From Bacteroidota bacterium (GTDB taxonomy: Bacteria > Bacteroidota > Ignavibacteria > Tepidaquicellales > Tepidaquicellaceae): DNA of 64,000 nucleotides. The DNA is taken from assembly GCA_018266845.1 (NCBI GenBank), contig JAFDZO010000029.1, positions 1-64,000 of the forward strand, written 5' to 3'. Under the pieces are notes generated by a model, which was not told where the DNA came from, searched no databases, and worked only from the letters and a program-made list of their open reading frames with translations. The position numbers were made by a program, and so were the translations under genes. Shown one piece after another: positions 44,136 through 50,947 of the stretch (position 1 is the first letter of the stretch; the number at the start of each line of letters is the position of its first letter).

Positions 44136-44140
44136 TTTGG

Positions 44141-44607
44141 TATTAAGTATTGAGTAGTGAGTATTGGGTATTGAGAAAATACTTAAATACTCACCGGGGT
44201 TTAATTTTATCTTTTACTTTTTATTAAATTGTAAATCATTTTTTCAATTACTTCAGTTCTTTCAAGGAGTCTGTCTAAAATTTCTGTATTAATATATCCT
44301 AAATTCTTTGCAATTAATAGTTGAGTTTCAAGTTCATAGCAGGAACCATTTGCAATTCCGAGAAAATGTTTAAACTCTCCATTGGAATTCCTGCCTGCTC
44401 CTTCAGCGATATTCGAAGGTATTGATATTGCACACCTGTTAATTTGACTTATCAAACCAAACTTTTCAGTATCAGGAAAAGTTTTTGTTGTTAAATAAAT
44501 ATCTGTAACTAAATTTATTGCATCGTTCCAAACTTTTAATTTCTTGTACTCGTGCATATTATTTTCTTTTTTACTCAATACCCACTACTCACTACACAAT
44601 ACTATAA
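44141..44607. repeat. Palindromic cassette carrying a four-helix-bundle gene
   Basis: Left arm 44141-44180 and right arm about 44567-44607 are inverted copies: 31 of 35 positions match by hand (AAGTATTGAGTAGTGAG against TAGTATTGTGTAGTGAG, and so on). Each arm is a degenerate tandem of 7-8 nt units (CAATACTC / CACTACT on the other strand). The enclosed segment is exactly one small gene, same direction as the host operon. The cassette occupies the entire preT-ureidopropionase gap; its right arm abuts the nitrilase stop codon at 44602-44604. As RNA it would fold into a long stem with the gene in the loop. Confidence 0.85.
44207..44557 (-). CDS. Four-helix-bundle protein (S23/IVP type)
   Basis: 116 residues from ATG at 44557 (MHEYKKLKVWNDAINL); a TTG seven codons upstream lies in the repeat arm and is less likely. 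Motif FGLISQINRCAISIPSNIAEGAGRNSNGEFKHFLGIANGSCYELETQL is diagnostic of the family named from ORFs in 23S rRNA intervening sequences. Stand-alone copies are common in Bacteroidota. The fold is also shared by accessory proteins (Avd) of diversity-generating retroelements, where they bind nucleic acid. Here it has no RT nearby. It is the cargo of an inverted-repeat cassette and may bind the stem. Activity unknown. Confidence 0.93.
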   Translation of the reverse strand: MHEYKKLKVWNDAINLVTDIYLTTKTFPDTEKFGLISQINRCAISIPSNIAEGAGRNSNGEFKHFLGIANGSCYELETQLLIAKNLGYINTEILDRLLERTEVIEKMIYNLIKSKR

Positions 44608-45468
44608 CTCTGTCATCTTGCCGTATGTTTCAGGTCTTCTGTCTCTGAAGAACTGCCAGGTAGCTCTCACTTCTTCAATCATATCCAAATCAAATTCTGC
44701 AACTAACAATTCATCTTTATCCTCTGAAGCGCATGCGAAAATTTGTCCGCGCGGATCAACAAAGTATGATGAACCGTAGAACTTGCCTAAGTTCCATGGT
44801 TTTTCTTCACCAACTCTGTTAATGCATCCCATGAAATATCCGTTGGCTGCTGCATGTGCAGGCTGTTCAAGTTTCCATAGATATTGTGAAAGTCCTGCAA
44901 CGGTTGCAGAAGGATTGTAAACAATCTCTGCTCCGTTAAGACCTAAAATTCTTGCTCCTTCGGGGAAGTGTCTGTCATAGCAAATGTAAACACCCACTTT
45001 GCAATACTTCGTCTGGAAAACAGGATAACCTAAATTGCCCGGCTTGAAGAAAAATTTCTCCCAGAATCCTGAAGTATGAGGAATGTGATTCTTTCTGTAT
45101 TTACCAAGGTAAGTTCCGTCTGCATCTATTACTGCTGCAGAGTTATATAAAAATCCTGCCTGCTCTCTTTCATAAATCGGAACAATGATAACCATCGAAT
45201 ATTTTTTAGCGTACTCCTGCATTTTTTCTACTGTAGGACCCGGCATAGGTTCTGCCGATTCATACCATGCTTTATCCTGCCCGGGACAAAAATATGGTGT
45301 ATTAAAAATTTCCTGTAAGCAAAGTATTTGAACACCCTTTTTTCCTGCTTCTTCTATATAAGGAATGTGTTTGTCTACCATCGCATCAACTATCTGTTTA
45401 ATGCTTCCTTCGCCTTCGGTCATAGGCAGTGACATTTGTATAAGACCGGATTTAATGATTCTTGCCAT
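44602..45468 (-). CDS. Beta-ureidopropionase (N-carbamoyl-beta-alanine amidohydrolase), nitrilase family
   Basis: 288 residues with the nitrilase triad: Glu53 (LQEIFN), Lys126 (GKYRKNHIPH) and Cys163 (YICYDRHFPEG). KYRKNHIPHTSGFWEKFFFKPGNLGYPVFQT is close to plant/bacterial N-carbamoyl amidohydrolases. Third step of reductive pyrimidine catabolism: N-carbamoyl-beta-alanine to beta-alanine, CO2 and NH3. Context (PreTA, dihydropyrimidinase, aminotransferase) makes this assignment strong. N-carbamoylputrescine amidase is the main alternative on sequence alone. Cassettes flank it on both sides. Confidence 0.92.
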   Translation of the reverse strand: MARIIKSGLIQMSLPMTEGEGSIKQIVDAMVDKHIPYIEEAGKKGVQILCLQEIFNTPYFCPGQDKAWYESAEPMPGPTVEKMQEYAKKYSMVIIVPIYEREQAGFLYNSAAVIDADGTYLGKYRKNHIPHTSGFWEKFFFKPGNLGYPVFQTKYCKVGVYICYDRHFPEGARILGLNGAEIVYNPSATVAGLSQYLWKLEQPAHAAANGYFMGCINRVGEEKPWNLGKFYGSSYFVDPRGQIFACASEDKDELLVAEFDLDMIEEVRATWQFFRDRRPETYGKMTEL

Positions 45469-45505
45469 AATTATATTTTAGGTTAAATTTTTTTTTAATT
45501 TTTTT

Positions 45506-45970
45506 ACCAGAAAAACACTAAAAACACAAAATAACACGAAAATTATTTAACGTATCTTTTAATACCTTCTCCAATGTTTTTTACATTAAAATTTATTAAT
45601 ACCCTAATCTTTTCTTAGAAAGTTTAAGATATGTGATTAACTGTGCTTCCCAAATTGGAACTATCGTATCAACTGATTTTAATTCACAGATAATTTCATT
45701 CTCCACTAAAACATCTAATCTTAGTCCTTCTTCAAGTTTTATTTTATCATAAATTATAGGAACAATTACTTGAGTAGAAAACTTTACATTTCGTTTACTA
45801 AGTTCGTAACAAAAACATGTTTCATAAACTCTTTCTAACAAACCAGGTCCAAGGTTTTTATGTACATCAAAACAACATTGCACAATTATTTTACCTAAAT
45901 TTTCCAGATGTTGAGGAATTGGTTCAAATTTCATTTAGTGAAATTTTGTGCTTTTAGTGTTTTAGTGGTT
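45506..45970. repeat. Palindromic cassette carrying a GxxExxY gene
   Basis: Left arm 45506-45543 (ACCAGAAAAACACTAAAAAC...) and right arm 45935-45970 (...TTTAGTGTTTTAGTGGTT) are inverted copies: 30 of 36 positions identical by hand after reverse complement. Arms are degenerate CACTAAAA units. The frameshifted GxxExxY gene fills the loop completely: its original stop codon overlaps the left arm and its ATG adjoins the right arm. It occupies the gap between ureidopropionase and dihydropyrimidinase. An empty counterpart with the same arm unit is at 47382-47475. Confidence 0.85.
45543..45934 (-). pseudogene. GxxExxY protein (PD-(D/E)XK-like), frameshifted
   Basis: The intact part (to the TAA at 45596) encodes 112 residues: LGPGLLERVYE (the G-x-x-E-x-x-Y motif), LRLDVLV and IICELKSVD, the last two resembling the D...E-x-K of PD-(D/E)XK nucleases, then YLKLSKKRLG. 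After Gly, the family continues LLINFN...; here one T is missing (GGGTATTAATAAAT instead of GGGTTATTAATAAAT), giving Tyr-stop. Reading on in the other frame gives LINFNVKNIGEGIKRYVK and a TAA at 45543-45545, exactly the usual family C-terminus. So the gene lost its last 20 residues by a 1-base deletion, or the base is a sequencing error. Function of the family is unknown. Confidence 0.88.
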
Positions 45971-45977
45971 AAGTTTT

Positions 45978-47360
45978 TTATATTAAATTTGAAACTTTAT
46001 TTCTTTTAATAAACTTACCGTATCCTTTTTTAATTTTTACTTCGCCGTTATCTATAGCTAAAGTACCGCGAAGTATTGTCTGTTTTACTTTTCCTTTCAG
46101 TTTCCATCCTTCATATCCGCTGTAATCAACATTCATATGATGAGTTTTAGCGGAAAGAGTATGCTCTTCATTCGGGTCAAATATTACTATATCTGCGTCA
46201 GCGCCGATACCGATTGTCCCCTTCTGCGGAAACATTCCGAATATTTTAGCAGCATTAGTTGAGCTTACTTCTACAAATTTATTCAGAGTAATTTTCCCTT
46301 TATTCACGCCTTCGCTGAAAAGCAGTTCCATTCTGTTTTCAATTGCGGGATGTCCGTTCGGAATTTTTGAGAAGTCATCTTTGCCCATTAATTTCTGCTC
46401 CCACATGAAAGGGCAGTGGTCAGTTGCAACAACCTGAATGCTTCCCTGATTTATTCCTCCCCATAATGCTGCCTGATCTTTTTTCTCTCTGAGAGGCGGA
46501 CTCATTACCCATTTTGCTCCTTCAAAATTCTGTTCATACAATGAAGCGTCGAGTATTAAATATTGAATGCACGTCTCAGCGTACACTCTATAATTTTTTG
46601 TCATCGTTCTTCTTATAGCATTCAGCGCGTCTTCGCATGTCATATGAACAATATATCCGGGAACACCTGTGTATCTTGCCATATCGGAAAATCTTCCCGA
46701 TGCTTCTGCTTCAGTAACTTCCGGCTGAGAAAGATAATGATATAACGGAGCTAACTTTCCTTCAGCTTTATGCTTAGCAATAAGGAAGTCAATCATGTCT
46801 CCGTTTGTTGCATGCACAGTTACCATTCCGCCCTGGTCACGGACTTCATTCATCAAACCAATCATCTGTCTGTCATCAATCATTAATGCGCCTTTATAAG
46901 CCATGAATGTTTTGAACGATGTAATGCCTAAGTCATTTACAAAGTGTGCTATTTCTTTTTTTGTATCTTCGTTGAAATCTGTTACAGCCATATGAAAAGA
47001 ATAGTCTCCGTATGCTGTGCCGTTAGCTCTGCCGCTCCATTCATCGTAAGCTGACTGCAAAGATTTTCCCTGCGTCTGCAATATGAAATCAATTACAGTC
47101 GTAGTACCGCCGTGCAGAGCAGCACGTGTACCTGTTTCATAGCTGTCAGAGGAGAAAGTACCCATGAAAGGCATATCAAGGTGAACGTGCGGGTCAATTC
47201 CGCCCGGCATAACTAATTTTCCTGAAGCATCAATTGTTTCATCAGCTTTTACATCGAGATTCTGTCCGATGCGTGCAACCTTTTCGCCCTCAATGTACAC
47301 ATCGGCAATGTAATCTTCCGATGCAGTGATTATTCTTCCGTTTTTAATTAATATAGACAT
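45978..47360 (-). CDS. hydA: Dihydropyrimidinase (D-hydantoinase)
   Basis: 460 residues from ATG at 47360 (MSILIKNGRIITASE); the 13 extra codons upstream come from repeat DNA. Amidohydrolase metal site: PGGIDPHVHLDMPF (two His), carboxylated Lys in SFKTFMAYKG, TVHATNGD, YIVHMTCEDAL, and Asp in VATDHCPF. Opens 5,6-dihydrouracil/dihydrothymine to N-carbamoyl-beta-alanine. Length and motifs match bacterial D-hydantoinases. Placed between its product-using enzyme and the permease in the operon, with a cassette on one side and an empty palindrome on the other. Confidence 0.95.
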   Translation of the reverse strand: MSILIKNGRIITASEDYIADVYIEGEKVARIGQNLDVKADETIDASGKLVMPGGIDPHVHLDMPFMGTFSSDSYETGTRAALHGGTTTVIDFILQTQGKSLQSAYDEWSGRANGTAYGDYSFHMAVTDFNEDTKKEIAHFVNDLGITSFKTFMAYKGALMIDDRQMIGLMNEVRDQGGMVTVHATNGDMIDFLIAKHKAEGKLAPLYHYLSQPEVTEAEASGRFSDMARYTGVPGYIVHMTCEDALNAIRRTMTKNYRVYAETCIQYLILDASLYEQNFEGAKWVMSPPLREKKDQAALWGGINQGSIQVVATDHCPFMWEQKLMGKDDFSKIPNGHPAIENRMELLFSEGVNKGKITLNKFVEVSSTNAAKIFGMFPQKGTIGIGADADIVIFDPNEEHTLSAKTHHMNVDYSGYEGWKLKGKVKQTILRGTLAIDNGEVKIKKGYGKFIKRNKVSNLI

Positions 47361-47381: not shown

Positions 47382-47475
47382 TTCAACACTAAAACACAAA
47401 AGTCACTAAATCACACTAAACATAAAATAATTTTTAATTAGTGCAGATTGGTGGGTTTAGTGTTTTAGTGGTTAA
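47382..47475. repeat. Empty palindrome with CACTAAAA-unit arms
   Basis: TTCAACACTAAAACACAAAA (from 47382) faces TTTAGTGTTTTAGTGGTTAA (to 47475). Over about 38 positions roughly 28 match. It uses the same CACTAAAACAC unit as the GxxExxY cassette arms but contains no gene, only about 15-20 nt of AT-rich loop. The permease's stop codon (TAA at 47465-47467) lies inside the repeat, so the repeat supplies the gene's end. Confidence 0.8.
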
Positions 47476-48955
47476 CTGCGCGAGTTTTGTTCTTCATAAA
47501 AGCATAATAAATAACAGCGGAGACTCCAAATCCTACAAACCAAGCATAGTGATATAAGTTAGAAATCCAAAAAGGAAATGCGTCTTTACTGACAAGCCCT
47601 ACTGTTGTTAAAAACCCGGGAGCATTTGGAAGTATGCCAATAAGCAATGCTATCATTGCATATTTATTTATTCCCGAACCGTATGAGTACTCACCTGTGT
47701 TTGAATACAGCGCCTCTACATCCAGCTTTTGTTTTCTTATAAAGAAATAATCTGCAATCATAATTCCGCCTACGGGACCTAACAAGCTTGAATATGCAAT
47801 CAGCCATGTAAAAATATATCCGTTAGGGTCAGCAATTAATTTCCATGGGAAAATTAAAACACCGATTATCCCTGTAATATAACCGCCTTTTCTGAAATCA
47901 ATTTTGGCGGGATTTAAATTAGCAAAATCATTTGCAGGACTTACAATATTTGCCGCAATATTTGTCGCAAGAGTGGAAACAGCAATACAAATCATTGCAA
48001 CACTTACTAAAATTTTATTTTCAAATTTTCCTGCTAAAACAACAGGGTCCCAAATCATTGTGCCATATATAATCACAGTTGCAGATGTAACAACAACTCC
48101 GATAAATGCAAACAAAGTCATAGAAGGAGGAAGCCCGATAACCTGCCCCATTACCTGCGCTCTCTGGCTTTTTGCGTAGCGGGTGAAATCGGGAATGTTC
48201 AGTGAAAGTGTTGCCCAAAAGCCGACCATACCTGTAAGAGCAGGGAAGAAGTAATTCCAGAACTCTCCGCTTGATGTAAATTTAGACGGCTGTGAAAGTA
48301 TAGGACCTAAGCCGTTTCCTGCAGAGATTGCCCAGAACAATAATGCAAGCGCTGCCACAGGAAGAAAGAATGCTTTGAATACCAATAATTTTTTTATGCT
48401 CTCAACGCCGAGATATACTACATACATATTGAGGAGCCAGAATAAAAAGAATGTAATCGCAGGACCTGTTTCAAGACCGAATGAAGCAGGAAAAATTCTG
48501 GGCAAGTCTGCAATTCCGGGATACCAGACGTGAATCATTTGATAAATAGAAAAGCCGCCTATCCATGCCTGAATGCCAAACCATCCGCATGCAACAATTG
48601 CTCTGAGTATTGCAGGAATGTTTGCGCCTTTAACACCAAAGCTTGCGCGGACAAATACAGGAAAAGGAATTCCGTATTTTGCTCCTGCCCTTCCGTTTAA
48701 AATCATTGGAACAAGCACAACGGTATTCCCAAGAAAAATGGTGAATATTGCCTGCCACCAGTTCATACCTCCTTCAATTAAAGAACTTGCAAGCATGTAT
48801 GTGGGAATGCATAAGCTCATGCTTATCCACAGCGCTGCATAGTTCCAAGTATTCCATGTTCTTTGAAAGGAGGAAACAGGGGCTAAATCTTCACTGTATA
48901 ATGACGATGATTTGATGTTATCATGCGAAGTTAAATCATGTGTGTCACTATCCAA
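47465..48955 (-). CDS. NCS1-family nucleobase transporter
   Basis: 496 residues, about 12 membrane segments. NCS1 marks: SFQRTWNTWNYAALWISMSLCIPTYMLAS, NGRAGAKYGIPFPVFVRASFGVKGANIPA, ACGWFGIQAWIGG, LSLNIPDFTRYAKS and NIAANIVSPANDFANLNP. Imports uracil, thymine, allantoin or hydantoins with H+ or Na+. The operon makes uracil/thymine the likely cargo (relatives: Mhp1, PucI). The protein ends TRAVNH with the stop given by a palindromic repeat. Inner membrane. Confidence 0.93.
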   Translation of the reverse strand: MDSDTHDLTSHDNIKSSSLYSEDLAPVSSFQRTWNTWNYAALWISMSLCIPTYMLASSLIEGGMNWWQAIFTIFLGNTVVLVPMILNGRAGAKYGIPFPVFVRASFGVKGANIPAILRAIVACGWFGIQAWIGGFSIYQMIHVWYPGIADLPRIFPASFGLETGPAITFFLFWLLNMYVVYLGVESIKKLLVFKAFFLPVAALALLFWAISAGNGLGPILSQPSKFTSSGEFWNYFFPALTGMVGFWATLSLNIPDFTRYAKSQRAQVMGQVIGLPPSMTLFAFIGVVVTSATVIIYGTMIWDPVVLAGKFENKILVSVAMICIAVSTLATNIAANIVSPANDFANLNPAKIDFRKGGYITGIIGVLIFPWKLIADPNGYIFTWLIAYSSLLGPVGGIMIADYFFIRKQKLDVEALYSNTGEYSYGSGINKYAMIALLIGILPNAPGFLTTVGLVSKDAFPFWISNLYHYAWFVGFGVSAVIYYAFMKNKTRAVNH

Positions 48956-50374: not shown

Positions 50375-50626
50375 TCAATTTAATGAGTATAAAACATCGG
50401 GACATAGGTCAATTCCGTTATCCCAATAAATCGTTTCGAGTTCTTTATCAAGTTTTACTTTTTTAAAGTAATCAGGGTTAAGTAATTCTTTAAATTTACT
50501 TTGAGGAGATTTAGACCATTCGTTAAGTTTCTTTTCTAAATCTACTGTTTTTGTTTCGCCTGTATTAAATTCTAATTCTAATTTATATGGCGAAACAGAA
50601 CGAATGTTTTTAATTAAGTGAATCAT
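50375..50626 (-). CDS. DUF2442 protein
   Basis: 83 residues: IKNIRSVSPYKLELEFNTGETKTVDLEKKLNEWSKSP has the DUF2442 pattern, small beta-rich, usually encoded next to DUF4160. Two bases separate it from DUF4160 upstream; the two form the common DUF4160-DUF2442 pair, suspected to be toxin-antitoxin-like but not proven in this species. The pair splits the aminotransferase and dehydrogenase genes of a metabolic operon. Downstream is a run of GTTAAAAA/GTTAAGT/GTTAAAT units (50344-50370). Confidence 0.87.
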   Translation of the reverse strand: MIHLIKNIRSVSPYKLELEFNTGETKTVDLEKKLNEWSKSPQSKFKELLNPDYFKKVKLDKELETIYWDNGIDLCPDVLYSLN

Positions 50627-50628
50627 AA

Positions 50629-50892
50629 TTATTGTAACGGTTCAATTTTTTTAAAATTCGGATTATCCTTTTGGCTTTCGTTCCAGTTATCCATTAGTTC
50701 TTTCCTATGAAGCTCAGCCCAATCCTGTATTAAACGAATTGCTCTGCGAGGCAATTTACCGTCAATCAATTCTCCTGTTTCTATGTTGAAGAATCCTGCA
50801 TTATCTCCGTATCTTGCATGAAAATGCGGAGGTGTGTGGTCCTTCGCAAACATAGCAATGATAATTCCATAAAATCTGCTTATCTCAGGCAT
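50629..50892 (-). CDS. DUF4160 protein
   Basis: 87 residues from ATG at 50892 (MPEISRFYGIIIAMFAKDH); the longer frame to 50928 overlaps repeat DNA. Family signature PEISRFYGIIIAMF...HTPPHFHARYGDNAGFFNIETGELIDGKLPRRAIRLIQDWAELHRKELMDNW. Partner of the DUF2442 gene directly downstream. Possible interference or toxin role is guilt by association only. Confidence 0.88.
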   Translation of the reverse strand: MPEISRFYGIIIAMFAKDHTPPHFHARYGDNAGFFNIETGELIDGKLPRRAIRLIQDWAELHRKELMDNWNESQKDNPNFKKIEPLQ

Positions 50893-50947
50893 TATTTTAC
50901 CAAATAAGTTAAAATTTTTTTCTAACAACGAACAACGAAAAACGAAA

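Follow-up and report, generated by a model that had tools for sequence, protein, structure and literature searches.

The window (that is, the whole 64,000-nucleotide stretch of a Bacteroidota contig that was analysed) contains, between hydA and the gene of an NCS1 nucleobase:cation symporter (Table 1), an imperfect inverted repeat whose arms (47382-47426 and 47431-47475) are 71% complementary and separated by 4 nt. Both neighbouring genes are on the minus strand, which places the palindrome inside a co-directional gene pair, and its edge, AACCACTAA, supplies the final codons and the stop of the permease gene. Judging from sequence and profile matches, the genes around it look like a reductive pyrimidine-degradation operon. 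As RNA, the palindrome folds better than every one of 200 dinucleotide-shuffled sequences, whichever strand is taken (z -7.9 and -6.5).

An arm is made of four CACnAAA units that start at positions 0, 8, 17 and 27, i.e. with a spacing of 8/9/10, and both arms of the window palindrome are of this kind. Since they form inward-pointing C-R-C-n-R-A-R arrays, the palindrome belongs to the GxxExxY-linked CRCnRAR palindrome family, as defined here. The initial annotation had described it as the empty counterpart of a cassette one gene away, in which a GxxExxY gene lies between arms of the same CACTAAAACAC unit, and this description is well supported: the occupied cassette (approximately 45503-45972) has the same units in the same 8/9/10 spacing, and hydA is the sole gene between the two. 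When one mismatch was allowed, the window had 6 occurrences of CACTAAAACAC; 1.04 were expected, and none of the shuffles had as many.

Table 1. Features of the hydA region (positions in the window)
Feature	Position	Strand	Description
Distal arm, occupied cassette	45503..45541	-	TTTACCAGAAAAACACTAAAAACACAAAATAACACGAAA, 8/9/10 spacing
GxxExxY ORF, 112 aa	45596..45934	-	PF13366/TIGR04256, PD-(D/E)XK nuclease fold family
Proximal arm, occupied cassette	45934..45972	+	TTTAGTGAAATTTTGTGCTTTTAGTGTTTTAGTGGTTAA
hydA (dihydropyrimidinase)	45978..47360	-	TIGR02033; separates occupied from ORF-less element
ORF-less palindrome	47382..47475	.	45-nt arms, 4-nt loop; between hydA and NCS1 permease gene
Left arm	47387..47420	+	four CACnAAA units: 47387-47393, 47395-47401, 47404-47410, 47414-47420; spacing 8/9/10
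Right arm	47437..47470	-	four inverted units: 47464-47470, 47456-47462, 47447-47453, 47437-47443; spacing 8/9/10
NCS1 nucleobase:cation symporter	47465..48955	-	stop codon within palindrome

The GxxExxY ORF of the window is assigned to its family by scores above the curated cut-offs (TIGR04256 / PF13366; 120.2 bits with a cut-off of 35, and 116.1 with a cut-off of 22) and by its motif residues, as it retains the invariant H, G, E, Y, D, E-x-K and Q (E34, D74, E84xK86 and Q98). It is the only CACnAAA-type GxxExxY gene of this genome and it is frameshifted, its last 18 family residues being in another frame, which could be an assembly error. The structural model of a relative's GxxExxY protein (pLDDT 90.5) aligned best with SSO0001 (Z 9.5, VIA-align), and next with restriction-endonuclease-like proteins and Holliday-junction resolvases (Z 6-7.5; Hjc, Z 6.8), i.e. 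the protein as modelled folds like PD-(D/E)XK nucleases. Foldseek alone gave no match at E<=0.001, and the nuclease fold therefore rests on the Pfam/TIGR profiles, the conserved residues and VIA-align. A search of solved structures with the GxxExxY sequence profile also gave no match, and a literature search on GxxExxY, PF13366 and the repeat words returned nothing relevant and no described role of GxxExxY. Elsewhere in the window, adjacent DUF4160 and DUF2442 genes (50375-50928) have a toxin-antitoxin-like resemblance.

Copies in the genome and at orthologous junctions

In the genome, the exact word CACTAAAACAC has 16 matches at 13 loci, whereas the reversed pattern has 3. A covariance model was built from eight copies with a hand-written structure, the consensus stem of RNAalifold being one unit out of register, and detected at least about 18 distinct ORF-less sites at E<0.02 with strands merged; one further, longer copy (L007) was detected by pattern only. 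The genome-wide count of arms with and without an ORF, which the initial annotation had proposed, thus yielded many copies, about 19 of them ORF-less and a single one, the cassette of the window, occupied in the CACnAAA class; as 150 of the 2268 initial candidates were scored in these pattern and covariance-model searches, the census is a lower bound. A lack of further copies, which the initial annotation had named as an outcome that would refute it, is thus not what was observed. None of the ORF-less copies has room for a GxxExxY ORF, and their loops are short and unrelated to one another. All 17 sites examined are intergenic, usually about 10-20 nt from at least one flanking gene. Small palindromes of another family, approximately GTTACGAAGC-loop-GCTTCGTAAC, lie near some sites (L004, L005 and L013).

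Copies other than the window palindrome adjoin genes unrelated to hydA, and this refutes, as a general explanation, the possibility that the arms are a conserved regulatory stem of hydA orthologues, which the initial annotation had named as an outcome that would speak against it. A palindrome-like spacer is also found at the hydA-permease junction of the congener G001, but six relatives in which hydA adjoins the permease (L059, L060, L062, L063, L066 and L067) have short spacers and no palindrome at that junction, so that a hydA stem has almost no chance of being the explanation.

At 10 of 12 other orthologous junctions, G001 is without the element. It has one clear orthologous copy (C19:77358) and a CGCAAAG-type element at C1:16715, whereas the remaining junctions have short spacers or unrelated sequence. 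At the GxxExxY site itself, G001 has a ParE/RelE-like pair instead (L057 2884-3396, from translation). Overlapping alignments hinted at duplications of approximately 20 nt at three empty sites, but in two spacers that were read by hand none was consistent. The comparisons with G001 thus gave no consistent duplication of the kind expected of MITEs, although AT-rich spacers would obscure short ones. Neither a target-site duplication nor a transposition event was observed among the copies, and no two copies look recent, because their non-motif positions are randomised.

For the palindrome next to hydA, one may also consider that a GxxExxY cassette was once present and that its gene was deleted, leaving the arms behind, as the initial annotation had suggested in proposing that cargo was lost. 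This would fit the arms, which are of the same 8/9/10 subtype as those of the cassette, and the palindrome-like spacer of G001 at this junction, which is shorter and decayed. However, there is no ORF remnant, the loops are unrelated between copies, no occupied element was seen there in the relatives with hydA adjoining the permease, and about 19 ORF-less copies against one occupied would require many independent precise losses. Loss of cargo thus finds no support in these data and is in our view very unlikely.

What is conserved among the copies is the motif. Identity between elements is 92% in motif columns and 37% in other arm columns (32% is expected from composition), a contrast that is inflated, since arms were placed and copies found by the motif, yet large; constraint therefore acts on the motif and not on the whole element. 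The spacing matches between both arms in most copies, also in a TGCC-ended subfamily in which units start at 0, 8, 16 and 26 (spacing 8/8/10). In 24 of 24 copies the two arms agree in the outer flanking letter at -2 (15.4 expected), perhaps a reflection of subfamilies. At the free n position the arms do not pair: in this genome the letter is complementary in 21 of 68 cases against 24.8 expected (per-unit shuffles, p 0.16), and when relatives are included, giving 24 copies, in 18 of 89 against 31.0 expected (p 0.0004). We keep this anti-complementarity as a suggestive signal: it looked significant in an initial pooled count and again with relatives included, and was not significant in this genome alone. 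In GxxExxY cassettes, whose arms lie some 350 nt from each other, the n letters agree in 75 of 125 cases against 55 expected by a cross-locus shuffle. Recognition may hold the other letters constant, with selection acting against perfect palindromes with a short loop.

GxxExxY genes and CRCnRAR arrays in other genomes

GxxExxY genes are present in 73 of the 148 genomes of a phylum sample and in 36 of 40 relatives, with several copies in many of them. Most GxxExxY genes, sampled evenly across the phylum, are enclosed by inverted CRCnRAR arrays, and the same is true of those of named relatives from Bacteroidetes, Cloacimonadota, Neomarinimicrobiota and a groundwater bacterium, although some cassettes have other unit types. 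The summed length of CRCnRAR chains in GxxExxY flanks of the phylum sample is 4.6 inward, 1.0 outward and 0.4 in shuffled sequence, and in those of the relatives 4.0 inward and 0.8 outward. A RAYT as the partner of these arrays was considered and rejected: the flanks of Y1 transposase genes (from this genome and relatives) contain other palindromes, and their CRCnRAR chain of 0.3 equals background, the value for GxxExxY being 4.0.

A chain of 0.3 was also obtained for genes of S23/four-helix-bundle proteins, whose inverted arrays are of another kind, 22 of 35 matched arms lying above the 95th percentile for mismatched ones. Such arms, in several unit types, flank each of the six S23 genes in this genome, and one of these genes is in the window (44207-44578, minus strand), inside inverted arrays AGTATTGAGTAGTGAGTATTGGGTATTGAG at approximately 44140-44620. 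Both kinds of cargo gene, GxxExxY and S23, tend to share the orientation of their neighbours: they do so in 156 of 169 cases, compared with 75 of 96 for ordinary neighbours (p 0.002). This bias suggests a dependence of the cargo on operon transcription.

This orientation would also agree with the palindrome acting as RNA, i.e. as a stem-loop in the operon mRNA (an RNase III site, a stabiliser or an attenuator) similar to the intervening sequences of 23S rRNA, with the GxxExxY and S23 frames as passengers in the loop. Its position within a co-directional gene pair, the fold that is far better than that of shuffles, and the fact that S23 is the protein family of the 23S intervening sequences, which RNase III excises (PMC4990558), all agree with such a role. 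On the other hand, the free n letters are not complementary between arms, several copies barely beat their shuffles (z approximately -1.8, L001 and L005), and there is neither an Rfam match nor a T-run after the stem. As a full explanation we consider an RNA element unlikely; a role as an RNA stem and membership in an element family could, however, both hold.

The ORF-less palindromes of other genomes resemble the cassettes of the same genome. Genomes of the same family carry palindromes, some with CACnAAG units, and in two genomes (G002 and G017) CACnAAG occurs in both ORF-less and occupied forms. A third, G014, has ten ORF-less palindromes, mostly with three units per arm and 8/8 spacing, together with a GxxExxY cassette that has the same three-unit array. 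Of 38 ORF-less palindromes, 28 had their best-matching cassette arm in their own genus. At one locus of G017 (L252, C222), a single gene, apparently that of an ABC-type ATPase, again has an occupied GxxExxY cassette on one side and an ORF-less palindrome on the other. In the genome of the window there is a second class of units, CACAGA, with 23 matches against 0 for the reversed control, which occurs as short ORF-less pairs and also flanks one GxxExxY cassette on contig C39. The ORF-less CACAGA sites lie at G000 C2:227224, C3:174792, C8:97950, C9:59934, C10:16262, C22:12411 and C32:9642 (L268-L287). ORF-less palindromes thus match the GxxExxY cassette in their own genome in the type, number and spacing of units, and the CACAGA class shows this pattern a second time.

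An alternative in which the units belong to the host, CACnAAA being the site of a nucleoid or regulatory protein that was domesticated between genes and is merely used by GxxExxY elements, would account for the strong constraint on the motif with randomised free positions and for the fixed spacing. One would then not expect unit type and spacing to vary from genome to genome, and between the two classes of one genome, in the way that GxxExxY cassettes do, nor that most sites are not common to the congener, and we therefore regard a host-protein array as unlikely.

A proposed element family and its relation to known systems

The explanation that we favour, and to which we would give about an even chance, is that the palindrome belongs to a dispersed family of GxxExxY-nuclease elements, as a non-autonomous member that lacks the ORF. 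The specificity of the motif for GxxExxY, the match genome by genome and the turnover between species favour the reading that nuclease and array belong together. Occupied members of such a family would carry a GxxExxY protein of PD-(D/E)XK fold between two inverted arrays of a short motif, generally CRCnRAR and here CACnAAA, with four units per arm and 8/9/10 spacing. The GxxExxY protein may recognise the array as its DNA target, and the nuclease could cut at or near such palindromes and in this way promote, in trans, the spread of copies to further intergenic sites. A GxxExxY gene of full length at the centre of the dyad would split the site, as the gene of a homing endonuclease splits its own target.

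The initial annotation had offered, besides loss, a second possibility, namely that the palindrome is the basic unit and that cargo is captured by some copies. Its first part fits the copy numbers; the second is too loose, because across many genomes the arm motif goes specifically with GxxExxY and varies with the cassette from one genome to the next, so that arms and cargo look like one co-evolving system. In a broader and more tentative form, it is possible that GxxExxY proteins are the dedicated nucleases of widespread, undescribed mobile elements, that they recognise a periodic CRCnRAR array, and that the ORF-less arrays, dozens in each genome, are kept and mobilised in trans, short-loop copies avoiding pairing at the free positions since perfect palindromes would be toxic and the recognition letters cannot be changed. 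A GxxExxY-tied array that occurs in occupied and ORF-less forms in one genome would give the protein family a testable substrate, and would account for a large class of palindromes between genes.

Among known systems, I-Ssp6803I is a homing endonuclease of PD-(D/E)XK fold. As in homing endonuclease genes, a nuclease gene would be central in a symmetric site that is split when occupied, judging here from the position of the ORF and the predicted fold. The ORF-less sites, in contrast, are present or absent between species and so are not fixed host sequence. MITEs are similar in being short, intergenic, non-autonomous copies with inverted repeats, and differ in that here the loop is unconserved and only a periodic motif is conserved in the arms; a consistent target-site duplication was not seen either, in AT-rich spacers that would hide short ones.

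The intervening sequences of 23S rRNA that encode S23p (PMC4990558) likewise have a small ORF inside inverted repeats, co-transcribed with the host gene, and S23-family genes here and in related genomes also lie in inverted arrays. However, the present element has another arm motif and GxxExxY cargo, most of its copies are ORF-less, and it is intergenic; membership among these intervening sequences was rejected, as it is inserted between protein genes and not in a helix of 23S rRNA.

REP/RAYT systems (REPtrons and TIRtrons) comprise dispersed intergenic palindromes together with rare copies that carry a nuclease/transposase (PMC3733652). They differ from the elements described here in their partner, which is an HUH tyrosine transposase and not a PD-(D/E)XK-fold protein, and in their arms: these are here fixed-spacing arrays of 7-nt units with no GTAG tag, the GTAG (or CGTC) tetranucleotide at one end of REPtrons being absent from the elements, which end in TGCCAC, ACCAC or AACAC. 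The organisation is otherwise alike, with short intergenic palindromes, rare copies with the same palindrome on both sides of a nuclease or transposase gene, non-autonomous copies that are presumed to be mobilised in trans, and turnover between related species.
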